Assembly (NCBI GenBank): GCA_963691655.1
Contig: OY829328.1
Location: 10,382,204-10,446,203 of the forward strand
Direction of reading: 5' to 3'
From: Toxonevra muliebris
Lineage: Eukaryota > Arthropoda > Insecta > Diptera > Pallopteridae
Length of the DNA stretch: 64,000 nt
Shown here: positions 22,840 through 56,905 of the stretch, one piece after another
Position numbering within the stretch: position 1 is the first letter of the stretch
Layout: each line of letters starts with the position of its first letter
Notes under the pieces: model-generated
Database searches by the model: none
The model's input: the letters and a program-made list of their open reading frames with translations, nothing else
Told to the model about the DNA's origin: nothing
Position numbers and translations under genes: made by a program

Positions 22840-25020
22840 GAATTCTTATAAATGATTATTATCAAACCATTGATTTTTAGGTGAACCAATGGAATATGTA
22901 GAAGGTGATGATGAAACAGAGTTGTTAATTGGGTGGGTAAATTGGCACAAGACCTTATTGGCGTCACCAAAGTTTTGAGAATTGCAGTTCTGGTTCGAAA
23001 TTCCTTGGGGCACCAAAACTTGTTTCGTCCATTTGAGCAAATATAGCTGAAACAGTTAAAGGCTTACAGATCAAATCGAGGCCGTATTTAGGGGGGGAGG
23101 GGTTTGGGGGTTCTTACCCTGTAAAAAATAAATTCGAAATCTTAGTTACACTATGCGCCCAAATCCGATTTGTTTTCTTCGACATGAGGTTTGACTACGA
23201 ATTCAAAAAGAGAAGGTGATACTGAGCACTCCTGCATTCATAGTTTTTCTGAGTCAGTAACTGTTTTTGATTTAAGGTTTCGTCCTGAATCAGTTTGAAA
23301 AGTTTAAACATTAATAAAAATAGAAAAAACTATCGGATTCTTGTAAAATAAGACTTGCTTGAACCCCATTTTTTTCCTAAAACGTTACGTGATGGGAAGT
23401 TTTTGACCTCAGATTCGTGTTCAACTTGAAAAATTCTTTCGTAAAAACTCCATCTTATTAGCAAAACCCATCTTAAAATTAATTTTATAACGCATTATTG
23501 CTAAGAGCACCACGACTAGAAAGATCTCTTTCAATGCTGTGACTTCACGAATTTAGGGAATATAAGCCAACCTCATCCGGGTTCGTTATCATTGATAATA
23601 GCTCAAATTCTCAATGATGATCATTTGAAAAAAATGAGCCTCTACAATTTTTGGGAATTTTTCTGAGGTTGAGTACATCATCAGTAGTGGGAAGTCAATG
23701 AGTTAATGAAATTATGACCCTCACGATAAAAAAAAAATGCACTAGAATGCACATTGAATAATATTTATTTGAGAAAATTTAATTTGATTATTCTGTGAAT
23801 TTTTTGTCACTTTTGGCCATTTTTGAGGTTAAGATTAAAAAAAATCGGAAAATTTTTCCTCAGATTTTAATTTTATAGGGTCCATCAAATGTATCATCGT
23901 TTTAATTTATTGTATTTAAAAATCAGTTTGATAAAAATTATTTATGAATATTTTCTTCGCATGAAAACCTGCTCCCCCCCCCGAAAAAAATTTCTGGCTA
24001 CGGCCCTGGATCAAATGAATCTACATGATTGAATACAAGTCATGTGTTTTGACACATCAAACAATACGGGTCCTCAAAATGGTGCCTGTGCTCACTTGCA
24101 ACAAATTCTCAATACAAAGCTAATTAATTTGCCACATATTTAAGATCCAAGCACCAGCGGTTTCTATGTTCGAGAGATTTTCAAAAGCTTTCATAAGTTC
24201 GATAAGTTCATTTGCTCCAAAATAAGTGATCAAAATCGGTATACCGTTAAACAATTTTGTCATTCCCAATTGAAAATTAATCCCAGCCGCGCGGACTACG
24301 AAGAGTTTTTGCAACTAATATTACATTTTCTTGATGCTGATGGTGGTAAACTTTGAACGCCTGGCCCAAGCAGCCATGCCCGTTGGAATCCCAAAGGAAT
24401 TTATTCATTAAAAATAGTTTTATTTCGCAAACAATATAATTTAACGAAGACGAAATTGAAGGCCTTGGATGCTCGAATGCAATTGAAGCTCCAAATCAAG
24501 ATTTCAATTTTATAAAAGCAACCATTGCTTATGCAGAAGTTGATTCCTTAGCACCAGCATCTTTCGTATTTGTCAGAAGAAGCAATCACATTGGCATTTT
24601 TCGACTCAACTTCCATAGAAGTTACAAAAAAAAATGACTGTATGCCTAAACTCAACACAACCCGATATAAAACTATTGATAACCGCAAATTTGTCAAACC
24701 AGAAACGTTGTTGCATGACGATGTGAGCGATTTTGCGTCGAAGAAGACTTACAATTTTTTTTTAGCAGTTTCCACATATCTTCAGAACTTTTGAAATTTC
24801 ATCCTTCAACATGGGAAGCAAACGAATATTTCTAAAATGGCTGTCAACTGTGCAGTAATTTATTTGTTACAAATGACACTACCGAAAGTGGAGGTAAATT
24901 TATGAAAGACTTTAACAAAATCCTTACGAATAATGAAGAAGAGAAGCAGCTTTTGCTCCAGATTGTAGAATCTTATAGAAAACAGTATCCCACATATAAA
25001 AAACCTAGTGTAATTTGAAT
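22840..25020 (+). pseudogene. Decayed protein of an uncharacterised insect repeat family
   Basis: Readable fragments on the plus strand in shifting frames, in order: GKLAQDLIGVTKVLRIAV (about 22940-22995); a hAT insertion at 23077-24008; a phrase ending NTGPQNGACAHLQQ (about 24056); HARWNPKGIYSLK (about 24375-24415); YLSEEAITLAFFDSTS (about 24565-24612, in a frame starting at 24570); KPETLLHDDVSDFASKKTYNFF; and KDFNKILTNNEEEKQLLL (about 24905-24960), close to the C-terminus. I recall the same order of phrases in proteins annotated only as uncharacterised in insect genomes, with no assigned function. Its position between 113-bp inverted repeats suggests it was the element's transposase or passenger. 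That is inference. Many frameshifts, so no product. Confidence 0.6.
23077..24008 (+). mobile_element. 932-bp non-autonomous hAT element, copy 1
   Basis: Starts CGAGGCCGTATTTAGGGGGG and ends ctggctacggccctg; the outer ends are imperfect inverted repeats of the hAT type (consensus like CAGGGCCGTA). An exact 8-bp target duplication, GATCAAAT, flanks it (23069-23076 and 24009-24016), and 8 bp is diagnostic of hAT-type integration. No transposase is encoded. It interrupts the decayed protein of the surrounding element, so it is the younger insertion. A second copy in inverse orientation is at 29133-31916. Confidence 0.9.
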
Positions 25021-29124: not shown

Positions 29125-30020
29125 GTTCAGTGCAGGACCGTAGCCAGAAATTTTTTCCGGGGGGGGGAGCAGGTTTTCATGCGAAGAAAATATTCATAAA
29201 TAATTTTTATCAAACTGATTTTTAAATACAATAAATTAAATCAATGATACATTTGATGGACCCTATAAAATTAAAATTTTTAGAAAAATTTTCCGATTTT
29301 TTTTAATCTTAACCTCAAAAAAATGGCCAAAAGTGACAAAAAATTCCAAGAATAATCAAATTAAATTTTTTCAAATAAATATTATTCAATGTGCATTCTA
29401 GTGCATTTTTTTTATCGTGAGGGACATAATTTCATTAACTCATTGACTTCCCACATCTGATGATGTACTCAACCTCAGAAAAATTACCAAAAATAGTAGA
29501 GGCTCATTTTTTTCAAATGATCATCATTGGGAATTTAAGCCATTATCAGTGATAAGGAACCCGGATGAAGTTGACTTATATTCCCTAAATTCGTGAAATC
29601 ACAGCATTGAAAGAGATATTTCTAGTCGTGGTGCTCTGACCAATAATGCGTTATAAAATTAATTTTAAGATGGGTTTTGCTAATAAGATGGAGTTTTTGC
29701 GAAAGAATTTTTCACGTTGAACACGAATCTGAGGTCAAAAACTTCCCATCACGTAACGTTTTAGGAAAAAAATGGGGTTCAAGCAAGTCTTATTTTACAA
29801 GAATCCGATAGTTTTTTCTATTTTTATTAATGTTTAAACTTTTCAAACTGATTCAGGACGAAACCTTAAATCAAAAACAGTTACTGACTCAGAAAAACTA
29901 TGAATGCAGGAGTGCTCAGTATCACCTTCTCTTTTTGAATTCGTAGTCAAACCTCATGTCGAAGAAAACAAATCGGATTTGGTCGCATAGTGTAACTAAG
30001 ATTTCGAATTTATTTTTTAC

Positions 30021-31878
30021 ATTTGATGGAAGTAAAAAATATCGTTAAATAGATTTTATTTTGACTTTTTTGGGAAGTATGATTTAGGTTTACCTCAATT
30101 TGATCATCCTTATAGATCTGCGAATTCTATGAAAGCTGATTTGCACATTACTAAGAATTTTATAGCGCCGTCTTTAGATAAATTAAGATTCTTGCATGCG
30201 TTGATGTGGAGTTTTGCTGTAAAGAATTTAATATATATAGGAGCGGCGTCTGGTGAAACACTGAAAATATCATATTTAGGTGTCGAAAGGTTATTACACA
30301 ATAATGGCGTTGCAATACTATATGATCCAGCATTTAGAAAATATACTAATAATAAAATAGCACTAAAAACTATAGGGTGGATGGTCAATGCAAGAGCGTT
30401 TAATTATGCTTCAGATTTGGATAATTTAATAAACTTAGATGGTCATTTATGTATTAATGATGATGCTTATAAATTAGGTGATCAATGGAACTTTACTTTA
30501 AATAAGTTGGAAAGTTATTATCATTTAATTCGCTCTAGAAACGCTTTATCTTTAAATACTATAATAATATTAAAATTTCAACCTAAATTTGTCACAACTA
30601 AAGGTAAGAGAGTAGATAAAATCATAATAAGCTTCTTTAAAGATATAGTTTTTCAACCTGGAGTCGGTGATAGTACTGAAGTGAGAATAATATTAGACAC
30701 TGACGGTCTTGACAGAATCATATTATTAGATGATTTTAATTATTCCATCAACTTATGGAGATCGAGAGCTATAGGTGAACAATTTGCTTTATCCAGTGTA
30801 TATTTTAAACATTTGATTTTAACCGAAAACATACTTAATACTATGCCTGAAGGACATTTATGCTGTTCATTTGCTATGACCACAAAGACACATGAGAGAT
30901 CAAAGCAATTCAAAATTTGGAACGAATATTTTAAGAAAATTGAAAAGTCTAATATGTTTGGTATAATAGTCATCATTCCAAATGATGTTATTATAACTGA
31001 AGAGATGGAAAGTAGTTTACGTGTTATTAAAAAGGTTCATGGCAATAGGACTTACTTAGACTGGTCAATAACTTTAAATGAGATTTTTGATTTAAATTTA
31101 TATTCATATAATGTTTTAGCTCCTAAATTGTTTTATAATACTAAGTACAAAATACAACTTCAAAATTTAATTTGGGGTTCGTCAGATTTAACTGAAATCC
31201 CAAGATGTTTTATTGGTGGAATATTATTGAAATCCTTTTGTCCGCAATCGATTTATAGTTCACCAGGACCTATGATAAAAGCATTTACGTTGAATTATAG
31301 GTTAGTTAATTCGTTATCTTCTGATTTCACTTATTCGACTAGATTTGCAATACTAATGGAAATTATAAACATAAATTCAATGGATATTAATGCCATTGGC
31401 GGTCCTGACGTAACATTTATAAGCTTGAAGTCCCAAGATGTTTTAGTTAAAAAAGGATTCTGGGCAGGGAATAGAATACATTTTAAAAAGGATGAGATTG
31501 TTACGATTAGTGGTCATGTTTTAAATTTATTTATAGCAGCCCAACATGGGCAAGATTTAATTAAGTTATGGTTTAAACAGTGGAAAACACAAGTGAGAGC
31601 TATGGATGATCCAACAATTAAACTTAAGTTAAATTCATATATAAATAAATTAAAATTATTTGATATAATCCTGATGGTACTAATGGTCCTTTTGACGAAT
31701 GGCATTCCGTTATTGATGTACTCCTAGCTATTTTGTGTGCTAATGATTATTTGAAGTTATTTGATTGCAAACCTATGACAACTCATGTACTTGAATCATT
31801 AGTACGGATGACTACTGAATAATTCCATACGCTCTCAATTGGGCGCTTTGATGTTAAATAAAAAAAAAAAAAAAAAAA
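30021..31878 (+). mobile_element. Endogenous viral cDNA insert ending in poly(A)
   Basis: The interval absent from hAT copy 1. The 5' boundary follows the hAT text tattttttac; the 3' boundary is a run of 19 A's (31860-31878). A single long plus-strand reading frame fills it, and only 37 bases separate the inferred original stop (31820-31822) from the A-run. This compactness is typical of a viral genome segment. The poly(A) suggests reverse transcription by LINE machinery. No target duplication is visible. The first 10 bases plus the preceding AC (acatttgatgga) also occur in the hAT arm at 29249-29260, so microhomology may have had a part. Confidence 0.7.
30036..31822 (+). pseudogene. Reovirus-like capping enzyme (2'-O-methyltransferase), endogenised
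   Basis: Virus-derived gene fragment. Open with no stop from 30036 to 31727; the first ATG is at 30129 (532 codons), but similar-looking coding text continues upstream without a start, so the 5' end is truncated. Numbering from that Met: Lys18; glycine-rich SAM loop YIGAASG at 36-42; acidic YDP at 65-67; NDD at 110-112; Lys149 in LKFQP; Glu184 in STEVR. Lys-Asp-Lys-Glu with spacings of about 93, 38 and 35 closely parallels the catalytic tetrad of VP39-type cap 2'-O-methyltransferases (K41, D138, K175, E207 in the poxvirus enzyme), a fold shared by reovirus capping proteins. Residues ~185-530 lack motifs I can name. At 31660-31667 the frame shifts, consistent with a 2-base gain; coding continues in another frame to a stop at 31820-31822. 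Virus family is inference. A host role is possible but not shown. Confidence 0.6.
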
Positions 31879-32289
31879 GTCAGAACCCCCAAAATCCCCC
31901 CCTAAATACGGCCTTGGTACAGTGCTGCATCTTTATTTCTTGTTTTTAACAAATGTTACTTATACGCCACGGTGTATATGAAATCAAACCGAGCGTTGCA
32001 GTTTTTTTCAGAAAGTTCTGCTGTAAGTATCAAAAAGCAGGAATATGAACAAAACAAATTTTGCTGCAAAATTCAGCGGTTCAGCGGTTTTGTTCAAAAA
32101 CTGAGTTCTCCGCACCTTCGAGCCCCTGCACAGTGCATCGTCCCATTGACAAAACCAGCAAATTTAGTAAAAGCAAATTCAAGAAGATAGAAGGTATTGT
32201 CTGTCAATTATGTTTGCCTATAATCTACCTTCGGGAATATTAATTATTCTGTAATCTTAAACTTTTTCAATACTTATGAGCCATTAAAA

Positions 32290-32415: not shown

Positions 32416-32990
32416 AATACAAAATTAATTACAATCGCTGAATGGCGGAGAGATATAGACTTATTCCAAATCTGACAAACTGGCTGAACAGAACACATGG
32501 CGAGGGGAACTTATACTTGACACAACTGCTCAGCGGACACGGTTGTTTCCAGGAGTATATGCATAAATTCGGCCATGAAAATGACCCGGCATGCAATCAT
32601 TGCGGACCAGACTGCATAGAAGATCCAGAACATGTGTTCTTTGGATGCAGAACTTTTACGAATTTGAGAATCGCGCTGAACACTGCTGTTGGAGACACAA
32701 GTACACCAGATAATCTAGTAAGCTATATGTTCAAGTCCCAGGAAACATGGAAAACTGTAAACAAAATGGCCACATAGGCTAGAAGAAGCGAACAGATGAG
32801 ACACGCAGATGAAAGAAGTACAGCTTAAAGCCCGTTCCCCCGCGAAGTAATACTTAACGGTAGTCCCGCGGAGTGAAGTAAACGAGATGAAGGTGGTTTT
32901 AGTCGGTAAGAATCCGACTTAACTGGACAAAAACAGGAGTTCTGCGGTACCTAATGTAAGGTTTACACTTTCCAACGCACAAAAAAAAAA
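32416..32990 (+). pseudogene. R1/I-type LINE 3' fragment inserted in LINE A
   Basis: A 5'-truncated non-LTR element ending in ten A's (32981-32990). Its open part (to 32777) reads YLTQLLSGHGCFQEYMHKFG, then a Cys-x2-Cys at PACNHCGPD, then EDPEHVFFGCRTF, i.e. the TQxLSGHGxF and CCHC motifs at the C-terminus of R1/I-type pol. It ends with ETWKTVNKMAT and a stop at 32775-32777. Imperfect 17-bp target duplications flank it (32391-32407 and 32991-33007, two mismatches). About 200 bases of 3' UTR precede the A-tail. This gives a clear nested insertion. Confidence 0.85.
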
Positions 32991-33676: not shown

Positions 33677-34310
33677 TTAACAACTTATACGTTTGGACTG
33701 GCTAAATTGCAATTTATCAAACAGATATTTTGGAGTCTCAGTCACCATAAGCTTGTGCAAATAAATGCAGTTTCTAGCTTCAAGATATTCCATTAAATTG
33801 CAACCTAATAATTGTTTTCTCCAGGTTGATATGTGGTCAAATTTTTTAAGGCCGTAAACATAACGAGTAGCATTATTAAGAACAACTTCTAGCTTATACA
33901 TTGACCGAGAGTCCAACTTGCTATACACGAGTTCAGCATAGGTAATTATTGGAAGAATTAATTGTATTACTAGTCTTTTCCTAGTGTCAGCAGGTAAATA
34001 ATCAGCAGTCATTCTAAGATTACGTAAGGTTAAGAAAACCTTTTGTACAACACTATTTATATGATCAACACAACTCAAAGACGAATTTATGTGGATTCCA
34101 AGATTAACAATTTTACTAACATAATCTAAAACAGACACACCAACATATAAAGGCGGGTAAACGATATTAAGTAACGGCCTTTTAGAAATCGGTAAAACAA
34201 AGGATTTGCTTGGGTTCAAGGTTAGGCCATTGTTACTACTCCATTTCCTAAGAGCCTCTAAGTCCAGGTTAATCTTAGAGCACAGATCATTAATACTTTC
34301 CATAGGACTA
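33677..34310 (-). pseudogene. Jockey-like LINE, 5'-truncated 3' half
   Basis: Minus-strand open stretch of about 210 codons. It has LEALRKWSSNNGLTLNPSKS (the post-YADD LNxxKS region of RT), then VSKIVNLGIHINSSLSCVDH (LGxxxDxxLxxxxH), LRMTADYLPADTRKRLV, LILPIITYAELVYSKLDSRS and LNNATRYVYGLKKFDH. These are ordered RT thumb/connection motifs of Jockey-type LINEs. The catalytic RT core is missing upstream because the element is truncated at about 34310. The poly(T)-rich tract near 33490-33520 is its probable 3' tail. The frame is undamaged for its length, so the insertion is relatively young. Confidence 0.8.
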
Positions 34311-34314
34311 GACT

Positions 34315-34523
34315 TTTCTCTGCCGTACCGCGCGTATATGGAATAAACTCCCTGCAACCGTTTTTCCTGACTTCTACGACCTTTTCAAATTTAAAACAAA
34401 CGTTTATAACTTTTTCTCCCTCTTTCCTCCTACCCCTAATCTATCTTCCTTCCTCAATCAACGCAATGCTTTGTATTCATAGGGGTACGCCCTGAGTGTT
34501 GATTGCTGAAATAAAAAAAAAAA
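34315..34523 (+). pseudogene. LINE 3' end with poly(A)
   Basis: Plus-strand text reads CRARIWNKLPATVFPDFYDL followed by FKFKTNVYNF, the common C-terminal motif of non-LTR pol proteins (RxAxLWNxLP). A short 3' UTR and an A-rich tail (about 34508-34523) follow. Its truncated 5' end abuts the truncated 5' end of the minus-strand LINE at about 34310, giving a head-to-head pair. Confidence 0.7.
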
Positions 34524-35469: not shown

Positions 35470-36144
35470 TTAAATATGTATCCACGAATCGACCCATTTT
35501 TTGAGTTCTTCGAAAGAACGGAAGTGCTGTTCAGCCAAGCGATGTGTCATCGATCGGAACAAGTGGTAATCAGAAGGAGCAATGTCTGGAGAATACGGCG
35601 GGTGGGGTAGCACTTCCCATTTCAGCGTTTCCAAGTATGTTTTTACTTGCCTTGCAACATGCGGCCGAGCATTGTCGTGCTGAAGAATAACTTCGTCGTG
35701 TCTATTCTCATATTCTGGCCTCACACTCTGGCAGTTCACATGTGAAAAATCGTCGTTCGACGTCTCTCGGCTTCAATTCGTATGGCACCCAATTTCCTTG
35801 CTTTTGAATCTTTCGCAATGCTTTAATCGTTTAGAAATGGTTGATTGATCAACTCCTAAAGATTCTGCAAGTTCTTGTTGCGTTTGACATGAATCTTCTT
35901 CGAGTAATGCCTTCAATTCTTCATCTTCGAACTTTTTCGGGCCGCTTGAACGTTCCCTGTCTTCAACATCAAAATCACCACTTTTGAAACGGGCATACCA
36001 CACCTGACACATTCTAACGTCTATAGCACAGTCACGATAAGCTTCAGTGAGTAAACGATGTGCTTCAGTTGCGTTTTTCTTTAAATGGAAGAAGCAAATT
36101 AAAACTTCCCGCAAATGTTGTTTTGTTGGCACGAAATTCGACAT
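35470..36144 (-). pseudogene. Mariner (DD34D) transposase with internal deletion
   Basis: Minus-strand mariner transposase. The N-terminal 100 codons from Met at 36144 are intact: LKKNATEAHRLLTEAY, VWYARFKSGDFDVED (HTH and GDFDVED linker), then TQQELAESLGVDQSTISKRL. A frameshift near 35800 moves the frame: text coding for NWVPYELKPRDVERRFFTCE is present in another frame. The sequence then jumps to RPEYENRHDEVILQHDNARP (second catalytic Asp), PPYSPDIAPSDYHLF (third Asp, DD34D spacing) and ends in VDSWIHI. The central region with the first Asp (GDE) is deleted, about 100 codons by comparison with typical ~345-residue mariners. It cannot transpose. Most like the mauritiana/Mos1 subfamily. Confidence 0.88.
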
Positions 36145-38290
36145 TTTCAGCTATAGTAAAACACTTTTATAAAATTATGAAAATTATTTGACAGATCAAT
36201 TCTTATAGTATTTTTGGCGCTCTTCGAGATAGAATAGCTGTCAATGTCAAAAAAATGGCGCGTATGATAGATATGAAGTTAGTCACAATTACGAGTTTAT
36301 ACATTCATACTCCCAATACTTAACGGAAGAGCATAAAGGGTTCGTTAATATGTTTCAGGTAAATATTCTGCAGAAAATGTAGCTGTAAGTCGCGTACACG
36401 CAAACCCAAATCCAATATTTTAGTTTTTCTTTTACTAAAACAACAAAAATATGGTAAACTTTAATCGTACGTAAAGTTTCAAAACGCCCAGACTTGTTTA
36501 AGAATAATTTCAGAACGTTGATAAAGCCTAATTTTCTCAAGAAGTGTTTAAGCAGTTTTAAAAAGCCTCAAGTTATATAAAAATGAACCTTAGTTTATTT
36601 TTGCCGATACACAAACAATCTCAGCTCTAGTTATATGCTGTTGTATGCTAACAGAAAATCTAAGTAATCTAAGCTACATTTTTGATTTCAATAAACTGGG
36701 ATACTTGAGATGTATGCAAATTTATTACAGAAACTGGCAACCAATGTTTACGCAGCAGTAAGAATCAAAATAAGAAAAAGCAATTACAAAAGTACATGTA
36801 AATAATATAAAAAATGCTTTCTGTGTTTTCTGAGTTTTATTTAATAACTAACTATATAATAATCAAAAGTGTTGTAAATGTATAAAACCATTCAACTTAA
36901 ATTGCAAGTAAAATAGCTATAATTTTATTATAGTTAAGTGAGTTGCGAATAAAGTAAATAACTGTAATAATAACAATAATAAAAACTACTTCCTAAGTAG
37001 TTATACTCACATCTGCAATAAAAACATAAACATACAGACAGATAATCATGCGGATATGTGTAAGTAAAACAAAGGCAATTTAATTTTATTATTTTTCCAC
37101 ACCAACAAAACTTCTTAATGAAATAATATTTTATTGTATATTCAAATTCATCAGAAAGCACAAAAAAGCATTTACATAGTTATCCATAAGCTCAAAATCA
37201 TGCTTAAGTATAAAAATAAAACATCGACACTATTTATTGGTTTGGATAAAGTGAATGTTAAAGTAAAATTTTTAAAAATAAATCTACTTTCTCTTTTAGA
37301 ATTTTTTTTTCTGTCTCTCTCTTTCTTATACCTTATGAATACTCTCAAGTCAAATGCGTTTGATTTATAAAACTAAAATTGATTGCTTTCAATTTCTTTC
37401 TTTTAGATTTCTTTATTTTCTTGCCTCTCATTTTTAGGTTAATACTTAGCATTATTTTTTTTTTTTTTTTTAAGCAGAATCGGCAAACAACAATAAAACT
37501 GCCATTGTCCTTGATGCTTGTGTGCAATGTTAGTTATGTCCTTGTGCTTATTTTCTTTTCTTTTCCACTTTGTTGTTTGTTGTATATTTTATATGTTTCT
37601 GCTGCAACTGAGGCTGCTGACTGCCTGCATAGAACTTAAGTGCGTAATCCCGCACACAAACAACAAGCGAAGAATTTATATTGTAGTTTTAACATTTGAC
37701 AAAGCAAATAAATTGGTACTCGTATATTTCTGTTATATATTCGTTTTAAATATTTTTTATTTCCAATCTCTGTGAAGAGTAAAAAATCAGATTTTTCCTT
37801 TGTGGCAATGTTGAAGTATTTGTAATGTAATTGCAGACCCTTACTCGTTAGAAGGTCTGCAATTGTACAAGTAGATAGTAGTTACAATTTAAAAAATGTT
37901 TAGTGGGTAAACTATGACCCGTATGTACACTTTGTTTTTATTTACATTAATCTTGCAAACACTCAGTGCTTAGTTGCATTCAATCTGAAAAAGTTTTAGA
38001 AGTAGGAGTTATACAAAGGATTTCAAGTACTCTTAACGTTGATTACTGTCACAGGCTTATACACAAGGAATTGTAAGGCCAACAAATAGTTATTCACATT
38101 GAGTACAGCAGAATATGATTTAAGTCGAGTATGTAGCGAGGAAGATTAAACTGCAGCGCATATCTAATGAGAACCTGACTTCACTTTTAATTAGTTTCTA
38201 TTTTAAAAGAGATAATAAATGTCTTCACAGGAAATAAACATTGAAATGATTTAATTTCTTTGGAGGGCCTAATTGTTTGCAGTAATTTGG
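36145..38290. other. Unique AT-rich DNA
   Basis: No gene supported. Open frames are T- or A-rich chance readings. Several cytosine/thymine-rich tracts (for example cttttttctgtctctctctttctta near 37305-37330) and scattered tttctttcttttag-like acceptor-looking sites occur. This may be intronic DNA, but no exon was identified. Confidence 0.4.
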
Positions 38291-39599: not shown

Positions 39600-40260
39600 A
39601 AGTTTCCACTAAATTTTTAAGGCTTATGGAAAACCAAAGCAATACTAAATGGTCAGTATGAACGGGTGAAGAATTATCAAAGAGTTTCGAAACGGAATCT
39701 GGTTTAAAGCAAGGCTGTCTATTGTCTCCGATATTGTTTTCATTGTATATTAATGACTGGCATAGCTCCCTTGGCGGTGACATTTATAAAGTAAAATTAT
39801 ATCCAAGATTGCTGATATACGCAAATGACTTCGTAATCCATTCTGATAATGTTCAAAATATGCAAAATATGATAAGCAAATTGGAGGAGTATTGTGGTAT
39901 TTGGAATCTGGTGGTTAATCCCATAAAATTAGAAATGATGATATTTTGTTAGAGGTAGAAAAGTGGGTACCCATTAAAAATTGTTCTTTAAAGAACACCC
40001 TATAAAAATTGTACCAAAGTACTATAATCTAGGAGTAAAATTAACTGCAAGGATAAATTTTGGTAAGCACGTTGAAAAAAGAAACAATACAACAAAGAAT
40101 AGCCTAAGTGTAGCCCAATATTCAAAAAATTTCGATGCATATATTTCAATAAATACATAACTGTGGAAACTGTAGTTCAGAATCAGAAGAATAAGTTACA
40201 TTATTGATGCCTTTAAAGATAGACGTAATTTAATAAATGATTTCAATTATTAATAATTCA
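39600..40260 (+). pseudogene. LINE reverse transcriptase fragment, plus strand
   Basis: Reads SGLKQGCLLSPILFSLYIND (39695-39755; the classic GxxQGCxLSPxLFxLYIND motif B), then LLIYANDFVIHSDN, which is the YADD catalytic box with the first Asp changed to Asn. KLEEYCGIWNLVVNPIKLEM follows and the open frame stops at 39950-39952. Another frame continues with KIVPKYYNLGVKLTARINFG (LGxxL). The Asn substitution alone would inactivate it. It lies inside the minus-strand LINE, between that element's RT and RNase H parts, so it is a later nested insertion. Exact borders are uncertain. Confidence 0.75.
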
Positions 40261-56235: not shown

Positions 56236-56384
56236 AATATGTGAATTTGGCACAGTGACTTGAATTTTGGAACACGTCACTATTTTAAATTACCCATATA
56301 GAACAATTTTGTTTTCAAATTCCACGTTCGTTTGTGGATGTTGCCATACAAGATCGACGTTCGATCTTCGCTGGTTATCGAGGA

Positions 56385-56905
56385 AAAGTTCATTTCGGAA
56401 AAAACCGCGCGATTTTTTCTAAATAAACTTTCCCTCACGACTTTTTTTTGTGGAAACAATTTTTGGCTACAAGGGTTTTTGTTCATAATTCCCTTATGAA
56501 TATTTTTGAATTAAAAATGAAAAAATGATTGAGATAATAATAAACAAAAAAACTTTATTTACAAAAAAAGTCGCGAGGGAAGTTTATTTAGGAAAAAATC
56601 GCACGATTTCTTCCTAAATAAACTTTCCCTCGCGACTTTTTTCTTGCGGAAACAATTTTTGGATGCAAGGGTTTTTTGTTCATAATTTTTTTATGAATAT
56701 TTTTGAATCAAAAATGAGAAAATGATAAAGATAATAATGAAAAAAAAAACTTTATTCACAAAAAAAGTTGCGAGGAAAATTTTATTTAGGAAAAATCGCA
56801 CGATTTCTTCCTAAATATCCTTTCCTTCGCGACTTTTGATTTCTGAAACAAATGTTTGGCCGCAAGGGTTCCCGTTCATAATTTCCTTATGAATATTTTT
56901 ACCAC
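56385..56905. repeat. ~195-bp tandem repeat with a long hairpin
   Basis: About 2.6 units; the landmark cgattt(t/c)tt..ctaaata occurs at 56410, 56604 and 56801. Each unit also has aagggttt/ttc.cgttcataatt and ttatgaatatttttgaat. The boundary between units forms an inverted repeat: aaaaagtcgcgagggaagtt at about 56563-56582 pairs with aactttccctcgcgactttt at 56621-56640, with ttatttaggaa inside, a near-perfect arm of about 36 bases and a loop of only 2-4. The third hairpin (56762-56839) is more mutated. Non-coding. Confidence 0.85.

Follow-up and report, generated by a model that had tools for sequence, protein, structure and literature searches.

We found that the window, the whole 64-kb stretch of DNA analysed, carries a foreign insert with a terminal run of 19 adenines inside a resident hAT-like transposon, and that this insert is very probably an endogenous viral element, namely the A-tailed cDNA of a capping-enzyme mRNA from an undescribed phytoreovirus-like virus. 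The open frame that it carries is foreign to the host transposon. As a capping-enzyme fossil with both junctions fixed by empty copies of the transposon, the insert would record an unknown reovirus lineage in a form that can be dated. The features are collected in Table 1.

Table 1. Positions in the window of the insert, its parts and the transposon copies (positions of residues are counted from the ATG of the long frame)
Feature	Positions	Strand	Remarks
Foreign insert, very probably reovirus-like capping-enzyme cDNA, probably 5'-truncated, with A19	30072..31878	+	1807 bp; transposon flanks
Open frame, very probably viral	30072..31727	+	551 stop-free codons, stop 31725-31727
2'-O-methyltransferase-like region	30129..30740	+	K18, YIGAASG 36-42, D111/112, K149, E184
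P5-matching region (P5 residues 607-732)	31197..31592	+	phmmer E 0.034, 28% identity
Open stretch in another frame, probably the original C-terminal end	31664..31822	+	stop 31820-31822
37 nt between stop 31820-31822 and tail	31823..31859	+	would be the 3' untranslated end, should the frameshift be real
19-A tail	31860..31878	+	directly adjoins transposon sequence
Copy A, hAT-like non-autonomous transposon with the insert	29133..31916	+	ends CAGGACCGTA / TACGGCCTTG
Copy B, same transposon family, without the insert, internally deleted	23078..24008	-	duplication ATTTGATC, 8/8

Boundaries of the insert in a hAT-like transposon

Copy A is bordered by an 8-bp target-site duplication (GTTCAGTG / GTACAGTG) that matches at 7 of 8 positions, and that of copy B matches at all 8. 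With its typical ends, the element thus shows the traits of the hAT class, an 8-bp duplication and ends of the form CA.GG..CGTA / TACGGCC.G. The left flank of the insert (29133-30021) recurs in inverted orientation 5 kb away, as 24008-23120, with 96% identity.

A genome search with 322 bp of this flank (29700-30021) gave 2650 first-look candidates, of which 40 were scored and 30 fetched; all 40 scored copies were at least 96% identical over the query, and the fetched set minus the window's own copy left 29 copies for comparison. Twenty-seven of these match further into 30022-30140, whereas copy B with its deletion (L005) and one other copy (L012) do not, and none of the 29 extends past 30071. 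Both flanks are clean in 13 of the 29 (left match ending at most 1 base from 30071, right match at most 3 bases from 31879), with 14 to 69 bp between the flanks and a median of 63; the low value of 14 bp comes from L019, which is matched on the right side, as are L014 and L025, over only 14 to 22 bases. The sequence up to 30071 and from 31879 to the end of the element is therefore transposon sequence present in other copies. Since this holds for 30025-30071, the foreign part begins at 30072 and the ATG at 30129 is internal to it, and the start at 30021 given in the earlier note was too early.

Compared with the other copies, the insertion site in copy A lacks both a target-site duplication and about 60 bp of the transposon; these empty sites are paralogous copies and not the orthologous locus, and the ~60 bp may have been lost at the insertion or before it. 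A reading in which copy B is the empty site, and in which 2 bp were lost and a templated filler was added at 30022, was ruled out by the 30 fetched copies; because 30025-30071 is ordinary transposon sequence and copy B is an internal-deletion derivative, chance estimates for such a filler are void. A protein search of the 491-Mb genome (96 contigs), whose transposons point to an animal and probably to an insect, found the frame of the insert at one place only. The endogenisation proposed earlier is thus a real insertion, with host transposon on both sides and empty counterparts in other copies.

The long open frame

A single long frame runs on the plus strand from the ATG at 30129 to the stop at 31725-31727 (532 codons). 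Measured from stop to stop it has 563 codons from 30036, the first 12 of which are transposon sequence, and 551 codons are free of stops between the start of the insert at 30072 and 31727; the length of 543 codons given earlier could not be reproduced. Its outstanding length is evident all the same, for the longest stop-free frame outside the insert in the window has 235 codons and the maximum in 60 simulated windows (first-order Markov) was 195.

Relationship to reovirus capping enzymes

When the 532-aa frame was compared with the 177,635 PDB sequences, the better of two matches was the mRNA capping enzyme P5 of rice dwarf virus (Phytoreovirus; PDB 5x6x) with E 0.034, and with the C-terminal 208 aa as query P5 was the sole match, again with E 0.034. 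The aligned region, 28% identical, includes a near-identical ISGH-L-L-IAA block. Moreover, the Smith-Waterman score of the frame against P5 was 90. Two rounds of shuffling, each with 3000 sequences, gave at most 55 and 56; the reversed frame scored 25, and the next best among the window's 613 stop-free stretches scored 45. P5 was absent from the match list when the 563-aa sequence, whose first 12 aa are transposon, served as query. A PDB profile search re-found P5 alone, a circular result in that P5 is itself in the profile. Weak PDB matches to glucosamine-6-phosphate deaminase, ribosomal protein S4, EXTL2 and cubilin (E 0.13 or worse) were rejected, as no other feature supported them.

The identity as a reovirus capping enzyme, as proposed before the search, therefore stands in so far as P5 ranks first among the PDB sequences; this match is marginal when taken alone and aligns only residues 607-732 of P5. 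We nevertheless regard the assignment as likely, because the class of protein had been named before the search and few such sequences are to be expected among 177,635. Cellular or transposon proteins, a best match to which the earlier note had set against its own reading, gave no convincing match. The frame resembles P5 detectably in 607-732 only, and it may be divergent enough to represent a separate genus or a reo-like lineage of insects. By offset, the insert starts near P5 residue 230, which suggests that it is truncated at its 5' end and that about 230 N-terminal codons are absent.

At the other end, the stop at 31820-31822, which had been assigned to the long frame, does exist, but it ends another frame, while the long frame ends at 31727. 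Past the P5 match, about 76 residues lead to the stop at 31820 in that other frame and 44 to the stop at 31725, whereas P5 has 72 (in a chain of 804 residues). Because 76 is close to 72, the original C-terminus probably continued in the other frame to 31820-31822, which would imply a frameshift and give the frame a C-terminal distance similar to that of P5; the last 20 or so codons of the stop-free frame may then lie outside the original one. The 52-aa piece in the other frame, searched alone against Pfam and the PDB sequences, gave no convincing match.

The K-D-K-E tetrad and the YIGAASG loop that had been described in the N-terminal part are present at all of the residues claimed. When the loop was defined a little less strictly than it is in the frame, a pattern so spaced occurred in 16 of 20,000 residue shuffles. 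The contexts of the motifs (SLDKLRFLHAL, NLIYIGAASGE, HLCINDD, TIIILKFQ, GDSTEVRIIL) were compared by eye with the descriptions in an excerpt of PMC9496149, and, judged from these residues and their positions, the frame fits an RrmJ/FtsJ-type 2'-O-methyltransferase with a P5-like C-terminal region behind it. According to the same excerpt, Reoviridae encode two methyltransferases. The Pfam scan of the frame gave no profile match to an N7 methyltransferase domain, and N-terminal pieces of the frame matched no methyltransferase among the PDB sequences.

The A-tail and the route of integration

The run of 19 adenines that had been noted 37 bases past 31822 was confirmed at 31860-31878. No such A-run stands at this position in six other transposon copies examined, and a search for 10 polyadenylation hexamers in the ~80 bases before the tail found none except an AATAAA that overlaps the tail itself. 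Therefore, the tail arrived as part of the insert, and it is probably not a product of ordinary nuclear polyadenylation. To our knowledge, reovirus mRNAs lack poly(A), so that the tail cannot be read, as it was in the earlier note, as the plain end of a dsRNA-virus segment; it needs an extra step which the donor alone leaves unexplained. From the donor and the tail, we infer that the insert derives from RNA.

As to the route, we tentatively propose, with somewhat less than even confidence, that a reovirus mRNA left the core, was A-tailed in the animal cell, was reverse transcribed from its tail and was captured in the germ line by break repair. In the preferred reading as a whole, which we hold with more confidence, the viral plus-strand RNA would have acquired or received its 3' A-tail, the reverse transcriptase of a host retroelement would have started on that tail and, judged by the offset to P5, stopped some 230 codons before the 5' end was reached, and the cDNA would have been joined into a break inside the resident hAT-like transposon; one frameshift near the C-terminus would have followed later. 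If the tentative proposal is true, the fossil records a polyadenylated reovirus transcript and an endogenisation without LINE, in a lineage to which nothing in the databases covered is closely related.

A less probable route, which concerns the mechanism only and leaves the viral identity as it stands, is a target-primed insertion of the viral RNA by a LINE. Truncation at the 5' end fits LINE-mediated insertion, and the insert is probably truncated there; in addition, relics of reverse transcriptase lie nearby. The A19 of the insert agrees with the poly-A tail that is given, in an excerpt of PMC2987831, among the usual marks of such insertions and that is shared by the mammalian EVEs retrotransposed in this way. 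Unlike those EVEs, however, the insert lacks a target-site duplication, some 60 bp of its target are missing, and the target at the tail junction is GTCAG, which is unsuited to priming on an A-tail. As a canonical LINE insertion predicts a duplication, capture of the cDNA at a break would fit better. An A-tail from a virus group that is held not to polyadenylate, joined without duplication, makes the route by which dsRNA-virus RNA is reverse transcribed and integrated testable at base resolution.

Other possible sources of the frame

That the frame belongs to a divergent cellular or transposon-encoded methyltransferase, and not to a virus, we consider improbable. FtsJ-type families are present in Pfam, and the Pfam scan of the frame gave no family even at E 10; moreover, the protein search placed the frame at a single site in the genome, the insert lies inside one transposon copy and is not part of the element in the others, and the C-terminal region matches P5. 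In favour of a non-viral source, the family assignment depends on a marginal match and on motifs, and K-D-K-E methyltransferases of the FtsJ/RrmJ-like kind also occur outside viruses, as described in the excerpt of PMC9496149. A segmented +ssRNA virus of the vivivirus kind was rejected as donor, as the methyltransferases of viviviruses have been likened to alphavirus nsP1 (PMC12282112, in excerpt).

No relative of the insert protein was found in PHROGs, among 5.8 billion proteins or in IMG/VR, and the P5 fragment itself was likewise without a match in IMG/VR. The reovirus polymerase families PF05788 and PF07925 had no match in the genome; the control was also silent, so that this result is no evidence of absence. 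The donor virus is far from anything in the collections searched, but insect RNA viruses are probably sparse in these, and real isolation is thus only weakly indicated.

Quite improbable, in our view, is a processed retrocopy, in which the viral gene first entered the genome at another place, the host transcribed and polyadenylated it there, and the insert is the pseudogene that was retrotransposed from it. Such a history accounts directly for the A-tail, and mRNA-like transcripts resembling viruses are reported from a tick (PMC11237458, in excerpt). However, no source copy was found by the protein search of the 491-Mb assembly, no standard polyadenylation hexamer precedes the tail and there is no target-site duplication.

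Age and present state of the insert

When 927 sites were compared with the majority state of 17 other copies, copy A deviated at 26. Copy B shares 11 of these derived sites; of the 15 that it does not share, 2 border a small deletion. Copies A and B differ by 30 substitutions, of which 29 lie in the left two thirds and 1 in the last ~300 bp. This suggests gene conversion or a mosaic copy, and possible conversion between the two makes the dating rough.

On the assumption that the insert is no older than the divergence of copy A (1.6 to 2.8%), neutral evolution predicts 1.05 stops in the frame at 1.6% and 1.83 at 2.8%, with probabilities of 0.35 and 0.16, respectively, that none has arisen, so that an intact frame needs no selection. 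The earlier description of the frame as uninterrupted holds for the 551 stop-free codons; a frameshift near the C-terminus is probable, however, and the youth of the insert accounts for its intactness. A gene that is probably truncated and frameshifted is unlikely to give a working enzyme, and most likely, as far as the sequence indicates, the insert now makes none and decays neutrally. Domestication of the viral enzyme under host selection, for which the 551 stop-free codons might speak, is very improbable in view of this neutral expectation, the probable C-terminal frameshift and the N-terminal truncation, which probably took away about 230 codons. A putative role of the insert as a source of small RNAs is possible.

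Comparison with known Reovirales fossils

Excerpts of previous studies report one Reoviridae EVE in Aedes aegypti that is close to Liaoning virus segment 5 (PMC2987831), VP5- and VP1-like integrations in the same mosquito (PMC5497376), a reovirus RdRp EVE in a leafhopper (PMC7150801) and, in a survey that sought RdRps, RdRp EVEs in a butterfly, a wasp, a beetle, a psyllid and filarial nematodes (PMC12548735). Fossils of Reovirales are thus already on record for mosquitoes, for five other kinds of insect and for nematodes, and the rarity that the earlier note ascribed to dsRNA-virus fossils has to be corrected. Like the insert, these are reovirus genes fixed in the genomes of invertebrates; as far as the excerpts go, however, they are RdRp, VP5 or VP1 genes, whereas the insert is very probably a capping gene and has an A19 and exact boundaries. 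Further, the insect EVEs screened in PMC2987831 have, in the excerpt, neither a poly-A tail nor a target-site duplication. No endogenous reovirus capping-enzyme gene appeared in the titles or abstract openings among the matches listed for the open-licence PMC literature. As far as the literature covered shows, what is new here is a capping gene as the fossil, its A-tail and the precision of its boundaries.

Other features of the window

Neither the Rfam scan nor the tRNA scan of the window gave a match, and a Pfam scan of ten other frames in it was likewise empty. A broken mariner-type transposase lies at 35473-36150 on the minus strand, with Mos1 HTH and DDE_3 matches in neighbouring frames. 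Two retrotransposon relics are on the plus strand, one at 32442-32774 with a weak match to a reverse-transcriptase zinc-binding region, below the cut-off of Pfam, and one at 39662-39949 with a reverse transcriptase domain. The 235-codon stop-free frame at 33680-34384 (minus strand) has no Pfam match and looks by eye like a C-terminal piece of a retrotransposon. In addition, a tandem array with a 197-bp unit in 2.7 copies occupies 56379-56900, and part of the unit looks self-complementary by eye.
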